NCBI GenBank assembly: GCA_020852815.1
Contig: JADZAN010000010.1
Span: 62,001 to 126,000, forward strand
DNA length: 64,000 nt
Direction: 5' to 3'
DNA from: Gemmatimonadaceae bacterium
Lineage (GTDB): Bacteria > Gemmatimonadota > Gemmatimonadetes > Gemmatimonadales > Gemmatimonadaceae
Of this stretch, positions 46,261-53,330 are shown in pieces; positions within the stretch are counted from its first letter, which is position 1, and each line of letters starts with the position of its first letter. The notes under the pieces were generated by a model. That model was not told the origin of the DNA. It was given only the letters and a program-made list of their open reading frames with translations, and did no database searches. A program made the translations under genes and the position numbers.

Positions 46261-46425
46261 GTGCGTTGTGTGCTCGAGATGGAGGAGAAGCCTCATCGCT
46301 GCGGCCGCGTGTGGCGCGGCTCGCGCAAGATTCCACCTCGGCTGTATCGGCGGTAGTGGGAAAGTCGCGATAGGCACGGGCCACGGCCTCTTCCATGCCA
46401 CTTGGCGTTCGACTACGCTCTGGAC

Positions 46426-49113
46426 ATGACAGGCTCCAAGCGCCCCGGGCGCTTTCTCCTTGCGTCTGCCCGCGCGTCGCGCGCCCTCGTGGCCGGGCTG
46501 CTGGCGGCGATCCCTGCCATGGCCATCCCAGCGCATGCGGCCCTGGCCCAGGGAGCGCGCGATTCGCTCCTCGTCCCGGGCGTCTCGCTCGCGCTGGCCA
46601 CATGGCGGGCCGAGCGTGTGCGCGACGTGCGCTACGACCTCGTGCTCGACGTCACCGCCGCCGACACCGCCACCGGTCGCGTGGCGATTCGCTTCGCCCT
46701 CAAGCGCCCCGGCGACGTCATTCTCGACTTTCGCGGCGCGCTCACCGGACGCGTGCGCGCCAACGGGCGCGTGCTCGGCAACGTGCCGTACAACGGCGCC
46801 CACCTGCGCATTCCCGCGAATGCGCTGCACGCCGGGAACAACCGCGTCGACCTCGAGTTCGCCACGCCCATTGCGGCTGCCGGCGCCAGCATCATCCGCG
46901 TCAAGGACCCGAGCGACTCGGCCACCTATCTCTACACGCTCCTCGTCCCGTCCGACGCGTCGCTCCTCTTTCCCTGTTTCGACCAGCCCGATCTCAAGGC
47001 GCGCGTCACCTTCACGCTCACCACGCCGTTCGGGTGGAAGGCCGTGGCCAACGGCACACGGCTGCGCAGTGCCCCCACCTCACGCGGCGTCGTGACCACG
47101 TTCCGCGAGACCGAGCCGCTCAGCACGTACCTCATCGCATTCGCCGCCGGGCCGTGGGAAGAGGTGCAAGCCAGGGGGAGCCGAAAGCCGATCTCGCTCT
47201 TCGTGCGCAAGTCACGACTGGCCGATGTGGACGCCGATTCGATCATCCTCGCCAACGATCGCGCGGCGACGTGGCTCGAGGACTACTTCCAGACGCGCTT
47301 TCCCTTCCAGAAGCTCGACCTCGTCCTCGCACCGGCCTTTCCCTTTGGCGGGATGGAGCACCCGGGGGCGGTCTTCTACTCCGAGGAACGCTTCGTCTTC
47401 CGCGAACGTCCCACCCTCCCGCAGAAGCTCGGTCGTACCGCCACGATCTATCACGAGATCGCCCACCAGTGGTTCGGCGACCTGGTGACCATGGCGTGGT
47501 TCGACGACCTCTGGCTCAAGGAAGGCTTCGCGACCTACATGGCGGCGAAGATGCAGGACGCCATCGATCCCTCGTCCGAGGCGTGGAAGACCTTCTACCT
47601 GCGCAACAAGCCCGCCGCGTACGCCGTCGATGCCACCGACGGGACGACGCCGGTGTGGCAGCGCCTGGGCAACCTGGACCAGGCCAAGAGCAACTACGGC
47701 GCGATCGTCTACAACAAGGCGCCCGGGATCCTCAAGCAACTCAACTTCCTGGTCGGCGACGAGGCGTTCCGCGAGGGATTGCAGCTGTTCGTGAAGCGCT
47801 ACGGCTACGCGAACGCCACGTGGCGCGACCTCCTGGATGCCATCGCCGTTCCCGCCAGGCGCCCGCTGCGCCCATGGGGGGACGACTTCATCCTGCGGCC
47901 GGGACTTCCCGTGCTGGAGCAGAAGCTCGACGTGCGCGATGGGCGCATTGCGCGCTTTGCCATCGTGCAGCGCCCCGCACGCGCACTCTCCGGGACGCGA
48001 GCGTGGCCCATGCGGCTCGAGCTGCTCGTCCTCCCCGAGAGCGGGGAAGCGCAGCGCATCCCGCTCACCATCACGCGCGACACGACTGTCGTCGACGAGC
48101 TGACGGGACGCGCCGCCCCCAACCTCGTCTTCGCCAACTCGCGCGACCAGGGGTACGCCCTCACCCTCCTCGACCCGCGCAGCGTCGCCTACGTCGAGCG
48201 GGAGATCGGCAACGTGCGGGATCCCTTCCTGCGCGCCATGCTGTGGGGAGCCATGTGGGACCTGGTGCGCGAGGCGCTCGTCTCGCCCGATCGTTTCGTT
48301 CGCGCCGCCCTGCGCGAATTGCCGCGCGAGCGAGACGAGCAGATCGTGAGCGGGATCATCGCGCGGCTCACGCGTGCCGCGACGGCCTACCTGTCGCCGG
48401 TCTCGCGCGATGCCTTCCTCCCCGATGTGGAGCGCACCCTGCTGGCGGGAGCCAACAACACCGAACTCCCCTACGGCATCCGCAAGGCGCACTACGACGC
48501 CTGGGTGCGCGTGGCGACCACGCAACCAACCGTCGACATGCTCGCGGGGATGCTGGACAGCGCCACGGTGGCCGGTGAGCCGCTGCGTCCCCCCACGCGC
48601 TGGGCAATCGTGACGCGGCTGGTCTCGTTAGGCCATCGCAGCGCCGACTCGCTGCTGCGCGCGGAGACGGCACGCGATCGCTCGGCCGAGGGAGCGCGCC
48701 GCGCCTTCGTGGCCGCGGCGGCACGCCCTGACTCCGCCACCAAGCGCGCCTACTTCGAGCGCTACTTCTCCGACAAGTCGCTCAACGAAGACTGGGCCAC
48801 CGCCTCGCTCGACGGCTTCAACACGCTCGAATCGCAGTCGCTCTCCCTCCCGTATCTCACCGCGGCGCTCGACTCGCTCCCGTGGATCCAGCGCAATCGC
48901 CGAATCTTCTTCGTCGGGGCGTGGATCGGCTCGTTCATCGAGGGGCAAACGAGTGAGCGCGCGCTGGCCATCGTGCGCGAGTTCCTCGACACACGGCGCA
49001 CCCTCCCAACCGACCTGCGGCTGAAGGTGCTGCAGTCCACCGACGAACTCGAACGCACCGTGCGCATCCAGCGCACTTTCGGCATTCCGTCGCGCAGCGC
49101 CTCGCCTCCCTGA
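46426..49113 (+). CDS. Exported M1 aminopeptidase with GGMEH motif
   Basis: 895-residue gluzincin with a signal peptide (cleavage near AALAQ). The zinc motif HEIAHQWFGD is complete (343-347), with the Glu of WLKEGFATY downstream. The exopeptidase motif GxMEN reads GGMEH at 308-312 (His312 instead of Asn), an unusual change at the substrate-N-terminus site. The catalytic Tyr is probably in SNYGAIVYNKA. ATG 46426 begins the signal peptide; TTG 46402 is an alternative. Confidence 0.92.
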   Translation: MTGSKRPGRFLLASARASRALVAGLLAAIPAMAIPAHAALAQGARDSLLVPGVSLALATWRAERVRDVRYDLVLDVTAADTATGRVAIRFALKRPGDVILDFRGALTGRVRANGRVLGNVPYNGAHLRIPANALHAGNNRVDLEFATPIAAAGASIIRVKDPSDSATYLYTLLVPSDASLLFPCFDQPDLKARVTFTLTTPFGWKAVANGTRLRSAPTSRGVVTTFRETEPLSTYLIAFAAGPWEEVQARGSRKPISLFVRKSRLADVDADSIILANDRAATWLEDYFQTRFPFQKLDLVLAPAFPFGGMEHPGAVFYSEERFVFRERPTLPQKLGRTATIYHEIAHQWFGDLVTMAWFDDLWLKEGFATYMAAKMQDAIDPSSEAWKTFYLRNKPAAYAVDATDGTTPVWQRLGNLDQAKSNYGAIVYNKAPGILKQLNFLVGDEAFREGLQLFVKRYGYANATWRDLLDAIAVPARRPLRPWGDDFILRPGLPVLEQKLDVRDGRIARFAIVQRPARALSGTRAWPMRLELLVLPESGEAQRIPLTITRDTTVVDELTGRAAPNLVFANSRDQGYALTLLDPRSVAYVEREIGNVRDPFLRAMLWGAMWDLVREALVSPDRFVRAALRELPRERDEQIVSGIIARLTRAATAYLSPVSRDAFLPDVERTLLAGANNTELPYGIRKAHYDAWVRVATTQPTVDMLAGMLDSATVAGEPLRPPTRWAIVTRLVSLGHRSADSLLRAETARDRSAEGARRAFVAAAARPDSATKRAYFERYFSDKSLNEDWATASLDGFNTLESQSLSLPYLTAALDSLPWIQRNRRIFFVGAWIGSFIEGQTSERALAIVREFLDTRRTLPTDLRLKVLQSTDELERTVRIQRTFGIPSRSASPP

Positions 49114-49467
49114 CGCGGAGGGAGCTAGGCCGGGTTGGATTCCTCCAGGAGAGCAGGGCGCCCAAGCGCTCGTCCACCCCCGAATTGCGGCACCGAGCCG
49201 TCGATCGCACGCCACAGCCGTCCGCCAGCGCCGAGTGGGCGTACGTCTCCTGCCTCGCGTGATGCGGCGCACTTGGCGGGATGCGGTACCGGGTGAACAA
49301 GATTCCAGGGGATGAATTACGGCAAGTGCGCGCCGCAACGCCTTGTTTGACAACAGGATGCGAGTCGCTATCTCACCCGATACATGCAATTCCGGAGGCT
49401 GGCGGGCACGTACTCTGCTTCAATTAGCAGCGCGCAACCTTGTGCAAATAGCCGAGGAGGCGAATTA
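49114..49467. other. Intergenic region, about 350 bp, lower GC
   Basis: Between the M1 gene and the TPR gene. The second half is visibly less GC-rich than its neighbours, consistent with a regulatory region or local transfer. It holds a promoter candidate at 49347-49374 and a short hairpin that pairs GGAGGC with GCCTCC (49456-49475) across the translation start. Confidence 0.6.
49347..49374 (+). promoter_or_regulatory. Promoter candidate for TPR gene
   Basis: A consensus TTGACA (49347-49352) is followed after 16 bases by TATCTC. It lies about 95-130 bases upstream of the TPR coding start. Confidence 0.45.
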
Positions 49468-49475
49468 TTGCCTCC
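49456..49475 (+). promoter_or_regulatory. Hairpin covering a ribosome-binding site
   Basis: GGAGGC and GCCTCC pair around an eight-base A/T-rich loop. GGAGG is seven bases from an in-frame TTG (49468), so folding would hide both the Shine-Dalgarno and that start. Confidence 0.5.
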
Positions 49476-49500
49476 CAACTCAGCCCGGTGGTCGGAGCCC

Positions 49501-50772
49501 ATGCTTGCTCCTCTCAGCCCGCTCGACGCCTATCGCAACGATCTCGACCGGGATCATCGCCGGTCGGAATTCGGGAACGCCGATACCGTCTGGCTCTTGT
49601 TGTCCCATTGTCTCAGCCGCCTGAGCAAGGTGGGTGAGGTAGTGCGTGACCAACTTGCCCTGCAGTCGGCCAATGCGCTGCGCGACCTTGCCGACTCGGC
49701 GCAGGGGACTTTCGTGGGCGACGCCGCGCACCTGAACGACCTGCGCATGATGATCGCCGGGCTGTCGGCGATCGAGACCCGCGCCGGCGCCAATTCCGTC
49801 TCGCGCGCCTGCCGTGGCTTCGCGGCGCGCATGGCCGAGTCGGGGGCGCTATCGGTGGCTTACTCGGTCCTCGGCTCTGCGCGGACCGTTGCCGCCGATG
49901 CCTCCGATCGCGAGCGCGGGCTGCTGGCCGCAGACCAGGCACGCGTTGCGCGCCAACTGGGTGAGCTGGACAGCGCCGACGAACTGTACCGCACCGCCAG
50001 CGCCATTGGCGAGCGGTCCTCCGACGACGAGCTGCTCTCTCGCTCCTCGCTGGGGCGCGGCGTCATCGCGCGTGTTCGCGGCAACTACCCGCGCGCGCGC
50101 GCCTTCTTCCAGCATGGACTCAACCTGGCCACGACGGCGGGATCGCGTGAACTGGAGTTCTTTGCGCACCAGGGCCTCACCATTGTCACCTGCGTGACCG
50201 GTGACCCGGACGCTGCGATTCGCCACGGGTGGGAGGCCTTCCGCCTGGCGATGGGCGATGTCACGCGCGAATCGGAAACGCTGACCAACCTGGCCCAGCT
50301 TTGCCTCGAGTACGGGTACCCTCGGGCGGCGCTGCGCGGCTTCTTCTCGGCGTTGGCCCGCACCGACAGGCTGCGCGTCAGGCTGTCGGCGCTGGGCGGG
50401 GCAGCGCTCGCGGCTGGCCGCCTCGAGGATCTCCCGCTTCTGACCCGGCTGCAGAGTGAACTGCTGCAGACGATCGAGGAGTCGTCGCTGCCGTACGAGA
50501 ACGCCCAAGGGCTCTATCACCTTTCCGCGGCGTATCTGGCGTTGGGCGACGAGGTGACCGCCGAGCGCTTCCGCCAGGAAGTGGCGCGTATCGCGGTCGC
50601 GCGCGGGTATTATGAGCTGTCGCATCAGGTGGAACGCGCCGAGCTCGCGCGGGACGCCCGGTTGGAGGCCCAGCGCGAGCTCGGAGACTCGTCTCGCGAC
50701 GTCGTGACTACCTTGGAGCGCTTCGAGCCCGACGCCGAAGCGCTCGCCTTCGCCACTAGATGTGCGGATTGA
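49501..50772 (+). CDS. TPR solenoid protein, possible peptide receptor
   Basis: 423-residue protein from ATG 49501, or 434 from TTG 49468, which has GGAGG seven bases upstream and may be the true start. Most of the length is helix-turn-helix repeats of TPR type (for example LDSADELYRTASAIGE, YPRARAFFQHGLNLATTAG, YPRAALRGFFSALAR). No N-terminal DNA-binding domain, signal peptide or membrane segment. Its last seven codons lie inside the tandem repeat of the convergent lipoprotein gene (17-bp overlap). TPR solenoids bind peptides, so the neighbour's repeat peptide is a candidate ligand; this is inference. Confidence 0.75.
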   Translation: MLAPLSPLDAYRNDLDRDHRRSEFGNADTVWLLLSHCLSRLSKVGEVVRDQLALQSANALRDLADSAQGTFVGDAAHLNDLRMMIAGLSAIETRAGANSVSRACRGFAARMAESGALSVAYSVLGSARTVAADASDRERGLLAADQARVARQLGELDSADELYRTASAIGERSSDDELLSRSSLGRGVIARVRGNYPRARAFFQHGLNLATTAGSRELEFFAHQGLTIVTCVTGDPDAAIRHGWEAFRLAMGDVTRESETLTNLAQLCLEYGYPRAALRGFFSALARTDRLRVRLSALGGAALAAGRLEDLPLLTRLQSELLQTIEESSLPYENAQGLYHLSAAYLALGDEVTAERFRQEVARIAVARGYYELSHQVERAELARDARLEAQRELGDSSRDVVTTLERFEPDAEALAFATRCAD

Positions 50773-50950
50773 CGAAGTCGATGTGCGGATTGACGAAGTC
50801 GATGTGAGGATTCACGAAGTCCGAATTGATGCACTTCGCTGACTTCGCGTCACAGCGCGCGGCGCTGTCGGGACCCATCGGGGACGACGAGCAGGCGGCG
50901 ACGCTGACGACGACGAGGGCGTAGGCGGCGAAACGAGTTGCACGGTTCAT
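50756..50950 (-). CDS. 64-residue lipoprotein with three DFVNPHI repeats
   Basis: Short but well-formed gene: ATG 50950 has GAGG upstream, and residues 1-20 form a lipoprotein signal (basic MNRATR, hydrophobic core, lipobox VAAC with Cys20). The mature part has Cys33 and Cys40 followed by three exact tandem copies of Asp-Phe-Val-Asn-Pro-His-Ile at residues 44-64, ending at the stop. At DNA level the repeats are three 21-bp units, two identical and one with two changes. Codon use fits the genome. No family recognised; possible roles are a peptide signal precursor, metal-binding surface lipoprotein or a substrate for a processing enzyme. Confidence 0.75.
   Translation of the reverse strand: MNRATRFAAYALVVVSVAACSSSPMGPDSAARCDAKSAKCINSDFVNPHIDFVNPHIDFVNPHI
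50759..50821. repeat. Three 21-bp tandem repeats
   Basis: Units 50759-50779 and 50780-50800 are identical; 50801-50821 differs at two positions (50807 and 50813). The array encodes the C terminus of the small lipoprotein on the minus strand, and its first copy overlaps the 3' end of the TPR gene on the plus strand. Confidence 0.95.
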
Positions 50951-51013
50951 ACGGTGGCCTCAGGGCGAAGTGGTGGTTGGGGGAAACCTGTCATGTCCTC
51001 GCGTACGACACCG

Positions 51014-51044
51014 ACACCGTATGGGCAATCCCCATACATGGTGT
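51014..51044. promoter_or_regulatory. 31-bp palindrome, probable operator
   Basis: ACACC-GTATGGG, a five-base centre, then CCCATAC-(AT)-GGTGT: 12 pairs with one two-base bulge. It lies in the 117-bp gap between the divergent lipoprotein and AraC-type regulator genes, ending 23 bases before the regulator start. A fold-back symmetric site here is typical of an autoregulated operator; a leader hairpin is the alternative. Confidence 0.65.
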
Positions 51045-51067
51045 AACCTCGTCCTTGAAATCACCGG

Positions 51068-51865
51068 ATGATCGTTGCCGCCCTGGTATGGGATCCGGCG
51101 TCGCGGGCTCGGCTGAACGAAGCGCTGCGCGGGCACGCGACCGTTCGCTGGTGTGAGCGTCAGTCCGAACTGCTGGCCCTCGTCGAGAGCAACCTCGCCG
51201 GCGTCGCGGTCGTCGATACGCGCGACCGGGAGGGGCAATCCACCCTTCCCATCGTCAGGCAGGTGCGCGAACGCTTCCCCAGCGTCCCGGTCCTCCTGTA
51301 CTTCGCCATCTCTCCCGACACATCGCGCGACGTGCTCGCCTTTGCGCGCGCGGGGATCAACGATCTGGTCCTTCGCGACGTGGACGACCTGCGCCACTCC
51401 CTGCGCTCGGCGCTCGCCGCGGCGGCGGATCATTGCTCGGCTCGCTCGATCGTCGCCGAGCTCGAGACGCACTTTCCGGCCAACGTGGTCCCCATGGTGC
51501 AGTTCTGCCTGGAGAACGGGCGACATGCCATCACCGTCGAACAGGTGGCCGAAGCGCTCAACGTCCATCGCAAGACGCTCGTGGGGCGGCTCAAGGGGGC
51601 GCACCTGCCAACGCCCAGCGCGCTCATTTCATGGTGTCGCCTCCTGACCGCGGCCCGCCTGCTCGAGGACCCGGGGCGTTCGGTTGAACAGGTGGCGCTG
51701 ATTCTCGACTTCCCGTCCGGGACGTCGATGCGGAACATGATGAAGCGCTACACGGGACTGCGCCCCAACGAGATTCGGGAGAACGGCGGGGTACGATGTG
51801 TCCTGCACGCGCTCAAGCGCGAGTTGGCGATTCCCGCCGGCGGCGAGAATCGAGCGGCCAGCTGA
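51068..51865 (+). CDS. AraC-type regulator with degenerate receiver domain
   Basis: 265 residues. The N-terminal 120 residues look like a response-regulator fold: Asp50 (VVDTRD) sits at the phosphorylation strand, but the usual second N-terminal acidic residue and conserved Lys are missing (only D9; LRDVDD), so it is a pseudo-receiver. The C-terminal 110 residues form the two-helix-turn-helix AraC DNA-binding domain (ITVEQVAEALNVHRKTL ... SVEQVALILDFPSGTSMRNMMKRYTGLRPNEIRENGG). No kinase is nearby. It is divergent from the repeat lipoprotein and probably controls it. Confidence 0.83.
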   Translation: MIVAALVWDPASRARLNEALRGHATVRWCERQSELLALVESNLAGVAVVDTRDREGQSTLPIVRQVRERFPSVPVLLYFAISPDTSRDVLAFARAGINDLVLRDVDDLRHSLRSALAAAADHCSARSIVAELETHFPANVVPMVQFCLENGRHAITVEQVAEALNVHRKTLVGRLKGAHLPTPSALISWCRLLTAARLLEDPGRSVEQVALILDFPSGTSMRNMMKRYTGLRPNEIRENGGVRCVLHALKRELAIPAGGENRAAS

Positions 51866-51941: not shown

Positions 51942-53330
51942 TTAGGGGAATCGCTGTCCGCCCTTGATGACCACGCGCACGTCGCGCATGACGGTCATGT
52001 CGGCGAGCGGATTTCCCTTGACCATGATGATGTCGGCGTAGCGCCCAGGCGCGAGCACCCCGATGTTGGCCTCCTGCCTGAGGAAGCGCGCGGGCCACAG
52101 CGTGGCGGATTGAATCGTCTCCATCGGCGAGACGCCGAACTCGACGAACTTCACCATCTCCCGCCAGGTGGCGTCGTTATGGAACATGGCGGGAATGCCG
52201 GCGTCGGTCCCGATCATGAAGCGCACGCCGGTCTCGCGCAGCTGGCGGAACTTGGTGGGGAGGAGCGGGAGTCGCGACGGGAAGAGCGCGTAATACGGGA
52301 GTTGCGGGATGTGCTCCAGCGACGCGCGGATCTCCTGCGCCATGTCTTGTGGCATGAAGGCGCGCCACGCCGGGTCGTCGAGGCGTTCGGGGAAGACGGA
52401 GCCGGTTTCGTAGAGCGTGTAGAGCGGGGAGACGGTCGGCGTCCAGTACAGGGAGGAGTTGCGTTCGCGCAGCTGCTGCAGCACATCGTCGGGGTAGCCT
52501 GGGGCGGTGCCGAGCCCGGTGTGCTCGAAGTTGTCGACGCCATGCGTGAGCCCCACGCGGATCTCGGCCATGCGATGGGCGTGCGCGACCACCGGCTTGC
52601 CGTTCTTGTGCGCGGTGGCGACGACGGCGGCGACTTCGGCGTCGGTCATCTGGTCCTGGTCGATGAGCTTCACGACGTCGACGCCGGCGTCGATGATGCG
52701 TTGCACCTTTTGTCGCGCGTCGTCGGCGCCGTTCACGCCCCAGCGAAACGCCTCCTCGTACTTCTCGTAGGCTTCGTGCTGGATGAATGGCCCGGAGACG
52801 AAGAGCCGCGGGCCGGGGATCTCGCCAGCCGCAATGCGCCGCTTCACGCTCAGGATGTCCTCGAGGCGGGCCCCCAGGTCGCGCGCCGAGGTGACGCCCG
52901 CCGAGAGCAGCTGGCGGGCGGCGATCGGCATCACGACCGAGGCGTCGCGGGTGCCGTAGAGGTCGTCCCATCGCTTGTAGTCGCCGTGCCCCACGATGTG
53001 GAGGTGCACGTGCATGTCGATGAGGCCGGGCATGACCGTGTGGCCATTGGCATCGATGATCGGGGTGCCGGCGGGGACCTTCACCTCGTTGTCGCGCCCG
53101 ACGGCGACAATGCGCTCGCCGGCCACGAGGATGACGCCGTTCTCGATTACCGGGCCGCCGTAGCCGTCGATGATGCGCCCGCCGACGATGGCGAGGGTGG
53201 GGCGGGGCGCGCCCTGGGCAGCTGCAACGCGCCACCCCGGGATAACGGCCAGGGCGGCGAGGGCGGCCACGGCGGTCGCGGCGAGAAGGCGGGAGCGAGC
53301 AACGCCGAACGATCGAACGCGCATGGGCAT
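51942..53330 (-). CDS. Exported amidohydrolase (imidazolonepropionase-like)
   Basis: 462-residue secreted metal-dependent hydrolase of the amidohydrolase superfamily. Signal peptide, then GLIDMHVHLHI (metal HxH), the Lys of VKLIDQDQM, VVAHAHRMAEI, the His of FEHTG and GTDAGIPAMFHN (metal Asp). Substrate not predictable; homologues are annotated as prolidase-like or dipeptidase-type. It starts one base inside the preceding nitronate monooxygenase stop (TGATG). Confidence 0.88.
   Translation of the reverse strand: MPMRVRSFGVARSRLLAATAVAALAALAVIPGWRVAAAQGAPRPTLAIVGGRIIDGYGGPVIENGVILVAGERIVAVGRDNEVKVPAGTPIIDANGHTVMPGLIDMHVHLHIVGHGDYKRWDDLYGTRDASVVMPIAARQLLSAGVTSARDLGARLEDILSVKRRIAAGEIPGPRLFVSGPFIQHEAYEKYEEAFRWGVNGADDARQKVQRIIDAGVDVVKLIDQDQMTDAEVAAVVATAHKNGKPVVAHAHRMAEIRVGLTHGVDNFEHTGLGTAPGYPDDVLQQLRERNSSLYWTPTVSPLYTLYETGSVFPERLDDPAWRAFMPQDMAQEIRASLEHIPQLPYYALFPSRLPLLPTKFRQLRETGVRFMIGTDAGIPAMFHNDATWREMVKFVEFGVSPMETIQSATLWPARFLRQEANIGVLAPGRYADIIMVKGNPLADMTVMRDVRVVIKGGQRFP

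Follow-up and report, generated by a model that had tools for sequence, protein, structure and literature searches.

In the window, the 64,000-nucleotide stretch of DNA analysed here, which belongs to a genome of 5.38 Mb (G000) with Gemmatimonadaceae MAGs as near relatives, three genes lie together: a plus-strand gene for a TPR solenoid protein of 423 residues (positions 49501-50772), a minus-strand gene for a 64-residue lipoprotein (50756-50950) and, divergent from the latter, a plus-strand gene for a 265-residue pseudo-receiver/AraC-type regulator (51068-51865). The TPR and lipoprotein genes converge, and their 3' ends overlap by 17 bp (50756-50772), an overlap of the same size in the clade with DFVNPx repeats (the DFVNPx clade). 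The lipoprotein reads MNRATRFAAYALVVVSVAA, then CSSSPMGPDSAARCDAKSAKCINS, then (DFVNPHI)x3; a positively charged N-terminus and a hydrophobic stretch lead to the lipobox VAAC with its +1 cysteine at residue 20 (signal peptide, lipobox and cysteine encoded at 50891-50950, minus strand), two more cysteines follow, and three perfect tandem copies of the heptapeptide DFVNPHI reach the stop codon (50759-50821, minus strand). Between the divergent lipoprotein and regulator genes lies an operator-like block of nested inverted repeats, ACACC-GTATGGG-CAATC-CCCATAC-ATGGTGTAACCT (51014-51049), whose inner part is the palindrome GTATGGG-N5-CCCATAC (51019-51037). The gene order, convergence, overlap, tandem repeat and palindrome described in the initial annotation are thus all present, and only its start coordinate, 49468, was slightly off: the ATG at 49501 is the likely start of the TPR protein, because close homologues begin at the same motif (MLAPLSPL..AYRxDL), and we discarded an in-frame ATG further upstream, at 49384, to which the homologues give no support.

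The trio is not a chance arrangement, since it recurs at about 100 other loci. A profile search located the TPR family in 169 of the 395 genomes of the phylum (66 of 138 genera); in many genera the TPR and AraC homologues adjoin in the same order, separated by 0.2-0.9 kb, and nearly every gap inspected holds a small lipoprotein gene on the minus strand. A uniform scan took in 111 TPR loci, 108 of them with enough flank, many in MAGs, and called lipoproteins by pattern rules rather than SignalP. At 94 of the 108 loci the TPR stop was immediately followed by a small, convergent lipoprotein gene, compared to 0.3 expected with the same detector, which fired only six times elsewhere in these loci (the basis of the expectation for 108 scan windows). 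The regulator was present at 100 and all three genes at 88 of the 108 loci; once four hand-checked lipoproteins were added, homologues in the equivalent position were counted at 99 loci from 45 genera and six families. A tighter alignment recovered eight close loci in the named genome collection. All relatives come from one phylum, searched together with plasmids, among which only Gemmatirosa kalamazoonensis records matched, and lipoprotein search matches weaker than an E of about 0.01 were set aside as hydrophobic sequences matching by chance.

The conserved unit is the trio and not its neighbourhood, because the genes flanking the window module recur in the DFVNPx clade only; mere local synteny was rejected as an explanation on the same ground. 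The M1 aminopeptidase (46402-49113) and amidohydrolase (51942-53216) genes on either side are syntenic with the module across that clade alone, apparently by ordinary vertical synteny. We also rejected the idea that the lipoprotein belongs with the AraC gene alone, since AraC paralogues that lack a TPR neighbour (L122-L133) also lack such a lipoprotein; pseudo-receiver/AraC paralogues with neither neighbour are frequent in the family, one of them (L129, G000:C44) in the window genome. At seven or so loci the uniform scan detected the TPR and regulator genes and no lipoprotein. Unlinked genes or a lost lipoprotein, which the initial annotation had named as speaking against a module, are not the rule and concern only a few lineages, L168-L171 (family f6) and L096/L097 (genus g16), in which hardly any sequence separates the TPR gene from the regulator gene, no lipoprotein was found, and the pair may possibly be a receiver without a signal of its own. 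Gemmatirosa kalamazoonensis carries two modules (L085 and L086), on the large plasmids NZ_CP007129 and NZ_CP007130; their tails, ...TQPWWLC and ...CCVQPWY, differ within one genome, so a cell may have several channels.

Within the lipoproteins, the signal peptide, the lipobox and a short S-P-T-x-P-like mature start are kept, and the remainder is lineage-specific. Precursors measure 40-102 residues (median 49), and the distance between the TPR and lipoprotein stops ranges from -16 to 274 bp (median 19). The window genus has DFVNPHI x3 (window), DFVNPHV x3 (G002) and DFVNPNV x2 (G001); similar tandem units are DFVNPNA, NFVNPNV, NYVNPNV and DYVNPLG (x4), and other tandem units are HNPDSGN x3, HTPDSGS x2, HGPDAGS x4, HLPDSGT x4, YTPDPGA x7 and HTLGSGN x6. 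Copies may also be spaced (NWQGSGT x2, GGSQPWY x3, APTLPWV x4, RRPTIPWA x3, ATEVVPWF x2), and single-copy tail classes end in DT[IVLWF]PWN, D[VS][KR]PWG, DT[IM]PWV, C[RK]SGY...C, CDxxNPNxC or a GSGT-like sequence; the tail of G024, for example, is DVKPWG. The pattern anticipated by the initial annotation for a signalling role, a module kept while its heptapeptide varies, is borne out: the TPR/lipoprotein/AraC layout is constant across the class and the units change completely.

Two measurements show that the end-peptides are under selection. Family-wide, adjacent repeat copies differ at 138 synonymous versus 14 non-synonymous nucleotides (pN/pS 0.03), and the window copies at two synonymous and no non-synonymous ones, which indicates that the tail peptide is translated and that its exact sequence is selected. 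Identity over the last six residues reaches 82% in genus g13, compared to 26% for the linker and 59% for the signal peptide, and in genus g25 the corresponding values are 81%, 26% and 97%, a pattern that would be expected for a propeptide with an active C-terminus; the same simple measure gave no such contrast in the cysteine-ring groups, which have ends of differing length. These data bear on the view that the lipoprotein is an ordinary structural or stress-induced surface protein, merely the target gene of a regulator pair that senses another cue. The variation in tail length and repeat number would suit it, as would the divergent regulator-target layout, which is common for AraC-type regulators, but the repeats have identical amino acids although their codons have diverged, and the C-terminal hexapeptides are much better kept than the linker, both of which show selection on the exact end-peptide, and we regard this view as distinctly unlikely. 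Even less probable, in our judgement, is that the lipoprotein is the precursor of a secreted bioactive (bacteriocin- or RiPP-like) peptide, with the TPR protein and the regulator controlling its expression or immunity: cysteine-ring tails such as CRSGYxxxxGxxC and the variable cores recall such products, but the linear DFVNPHI-type arrays lack a typical core, and in the loci read through the trio has no recurrent modification or immunity gene next to it, a lone receiver being the only other recurrent neighbour. The tail class tracks the TPR tree (18 changes versus 62.8 with shuffled labels), as would be expected of a ligand-receptor pair and equally of plain vertical descent. A partial Mantel test did not tell the two apart: its value for the tail was 0.26, little more than the 0.22 obtained for the signal peptide, and no specific co-evolution of tail and TPR protein beyond descent emerged.

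The model of the window TPR protein is an all-helical solenoid with a mean pLDDT of 88.7, and TPR_12 is recognised in the sequence at E 1.6e-6, a match that just misses the Pfam cut-off in the window protein and passes it in relatives. Its best bacterial structure matches (Foldseek, VIA-align) are Rap, NprR, AimR and MalT, with Z scores of 18-23; the Rap matches, at Z of about 21-23, comprise Phi3T/Phi105 Rap with pheromone, RapF-ComA, RapH-Spo0F, RapI and pLS20 Rap. The eukaryotic protein LGN matches the model equally well, and the solenoid matches are partly generic. Several of the Rap alignments take in the N-terminal helices, from model residue 25, which supports a Rap-like peptide-binding architecture without thereby proving function. 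The alignments to RRNPP receptors have 6-15% sequence identity and are fold matches only, and no RRNPP receptor was among the matches listed by a sequence-profile search of the PDB. Pfam gave no DNA-binding domain in the TPR protein, only one sub-threshold HTH_10 match. Based on the model, the TPR protein is a plausible candidate peptide binder and might serve as a cytoplasmic receptor. In family f5 the TPR proteins (L140, L144, L150, L153) have about 170 extra N-terminal residues; two of these proteins were scanned, and Pfam recognised nothing in the extension.

The regulator, which the initial annotation had taken for an AraC-type protein with a degenerate receiver, is just that. Its C-terminus holds the double HTH by which AraC/XylS-type proteins are recognised (HTH_18, E 2.7e-14, 53.6 bits, cut-off 33.6; also found in distant modules), and its N-terminus has a receiver fold in the predicted model. 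A phosphorylatable receiver carries an acidic pair, an Asp, a Thr/Ser and a catalytic Lys, and the regulator lacks this full set: among 108 homologues the acceptor position is Asp or Glu in 82, the acidic pair is missing, and Lys is not among the common residues at the catalytic Lys position (R/A/E/S/Q; R in the window). With neither a catalytic Lys nor an acidic pair, the regulator is more likely controlled by protein contact than by phosphorylation. Receiver-type regulators are the targets of Rap proteins, and from this parallel and the gene linkage we infer that the TPR protein acts on the regulator. In about 30 more distant modules, including L139, L149, L152, L154-L158, L175, L177, L182, L188, L189, L191, L194, L198, L199 and L205, a lone CheY-like receiver gene directly follows the AraC regulator gene; it is possibly a Spo0F-like fourth part, and it is absent from the window module.

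In the divergent spacer, all three species of the genus retain the palindrome, and a second genus has a degenerate version of it; because the exact 7-bp arms occur only in the one genus, we rejected it as a phylum-wide element. The longer block, ACACC...GGTGTAACCT, is the most conserved part of the spacer in the two genera, and a 28-bp pattern derived from it has a single match in the whole genome when up to three mismatches are allowed. As no second copy was found there, we propose no wider regulon, and the block would fit an operator for local autoregulation.

Taken together, these features make it probable that the trio is a Rap-Phr-like peptide signalling module of a diderm phylum, with precursors that are lipoprotein-borne and often multi-copy. 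In this mechanism, the small lipoprotein would be exported via Sec and signal peptidase II, and the signal would be its variable C-terminal peptide, present as three DFVNPHI copies in the window. A difficulty for this mechanism is that a lipid anchor hinders diffusion; an extra release step would be needed, in which proteases would free the tail peptide; an oligopeptide permease would then bring it back into the cytoplasm, of the same or, in a cell-to-cell role, perhaps of another cell. There it would bind in the groove of the TPR protein, which would alter its grip on the receiver-like domain of the regulator, and the regulator, acting at the palindrome, would control both the lipoprotein gene and its own. 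As to uptake, three of the six loci examined in genus g5 (L145, L146, L147) have a gene of the OppA type (SBP_bac_5) immediately upstream of the TPR gene, one g31 locus (L082) has such a gene near the module, and the window genome encodes four SBP_bac_5 proteins, located elsewhere than the module. Opp genes are not generally linked to the module; those present make uptake feasible and are weak evidence for it.

An intact lipoprotein at the surface or in the periplasm might instead be the signal or an envelope sensor, its tail read by another cell or an envelope component, with the TPR protein and the regulator controlling expression and binding no free peptide. Every precursor has a lipobox, followed at +2 mostly by S/A/T/G and not Asp; heptad arrays would be multivalent, and neither a release protease nor a permease is generally linked, all of which would suit a membrane-bound signal. 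Such a signal would leave unexplained, however, why a cytoplasmic Rap-like TPR protein is encoded at every locus; the TPR protein and the tail are strictly linked, the single-copy C-terminal hexapeptides resemble Phr/PapR-type ends, and we consider this alternative unlikely.

The proposed Rap-Phr-like module shares with the Rap-Phr systems of Bacillus (RRNPPA family) a TPR receptor of about 400 residues with a Rap-like solenoid, a small exported precursor encoded directly beside it, a C-terminal peptide of 6-8 residues that is under selection and at times repeated in identical copies, and a likely partner that is a receiver-type response regulator (as in RapH-Spo0F and RapF-ComA). It differs in that every Gemmatimonadota precursor is a lipoprotein whose gene converges on that of the receptor, that the partner is a linked pseudo-receiver/AraC regulator, and that the phylum is diderm. 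NprR-NprX, PlcR-PapR and AimR-AimP likewise combine a cytoplasmic TPR receptor with an adjacent exported propeptide, but these receptors have their own HTH, whereas in Gemmatimonadota DNA binding lies in the separate AraC-type protein. Enterococcal sex pheromones of the cAD1/cCF10 type are likewise peptide signals with a lipoprotein as precursor, but there a larger lipoprotein yields the pheromone from its signal peptide; in Gemmatimonadota the lipoprotein is tiny, and variation and selection concern its C-terminal tail. MalT-type regulators share the TPR fold (MalT domain III, Z 21.7), but the Gemmatimonadota protein has neither the ATPase nor the LuxR-type HTH domain, and its gene context differs.

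RRNPP systems have been delimited by five criteria: a propeptide of 10-100 residues, Sec secretion with maturation, a receptor of 250-500 residues, TPRs, and adjoining genes (PMC10075063). Propeptide length, receptor length, TPRs and gene adjacency, four of the five, are all found in the module, whereas its export, Sec/SPII by the pattern of signal peptide and lipobox, differs in kind; among RRNPPA propeptides with an assigned route, 92.3% use SPI and the rest SPII (PMC9765709), and Phr propeptides are known to carry as many as eight identical copies of the pheromone (PMC11343458). With four criteria in common, export differing in kind and a multi-copy Phr precedent, we describe the module as working like Rap-Phr and make no claim of shared ancestry.

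Large surveys, which sample Bacillota only, treat TPR-receptor peptide signalling as a system of these Gram-positive bacteria (PMC10075063; PMC9765709), and the literature searched yielded no account of peptide signalling in Gemmatimonadota and nothing relevant on RRNPP-like systems in Gram-negatives. The module looks like a so far undescribed peptide communication system of the kind known from Gram-positive bacteria. We tentatively extend this to a possible, though somewhat doubtful, diderm signalling class, ancestral to much of Gemmatimonadota, in which lipoprotein arrays of lineage-specific heptapeptides would form a pheromone code, the Rap-like TPR receptor would have arisen independently of RRNPP, and a phosphorylation-blind receiver/AraC regulator would provide the output. 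A lipoprotein-borne, multi-copy precursor in a diderm poses the question of how the signal leaves its lipid anchor and crosses two membranes. If the signalling interpretation is true, a common, hard-to-culture soil phylum would gain a peptide language of its own, about 100 predicted signal sequences would be open to synthesis and testing, and it could be tested whether signalling of the Rap type has more than one origin or goes back further than assumed.
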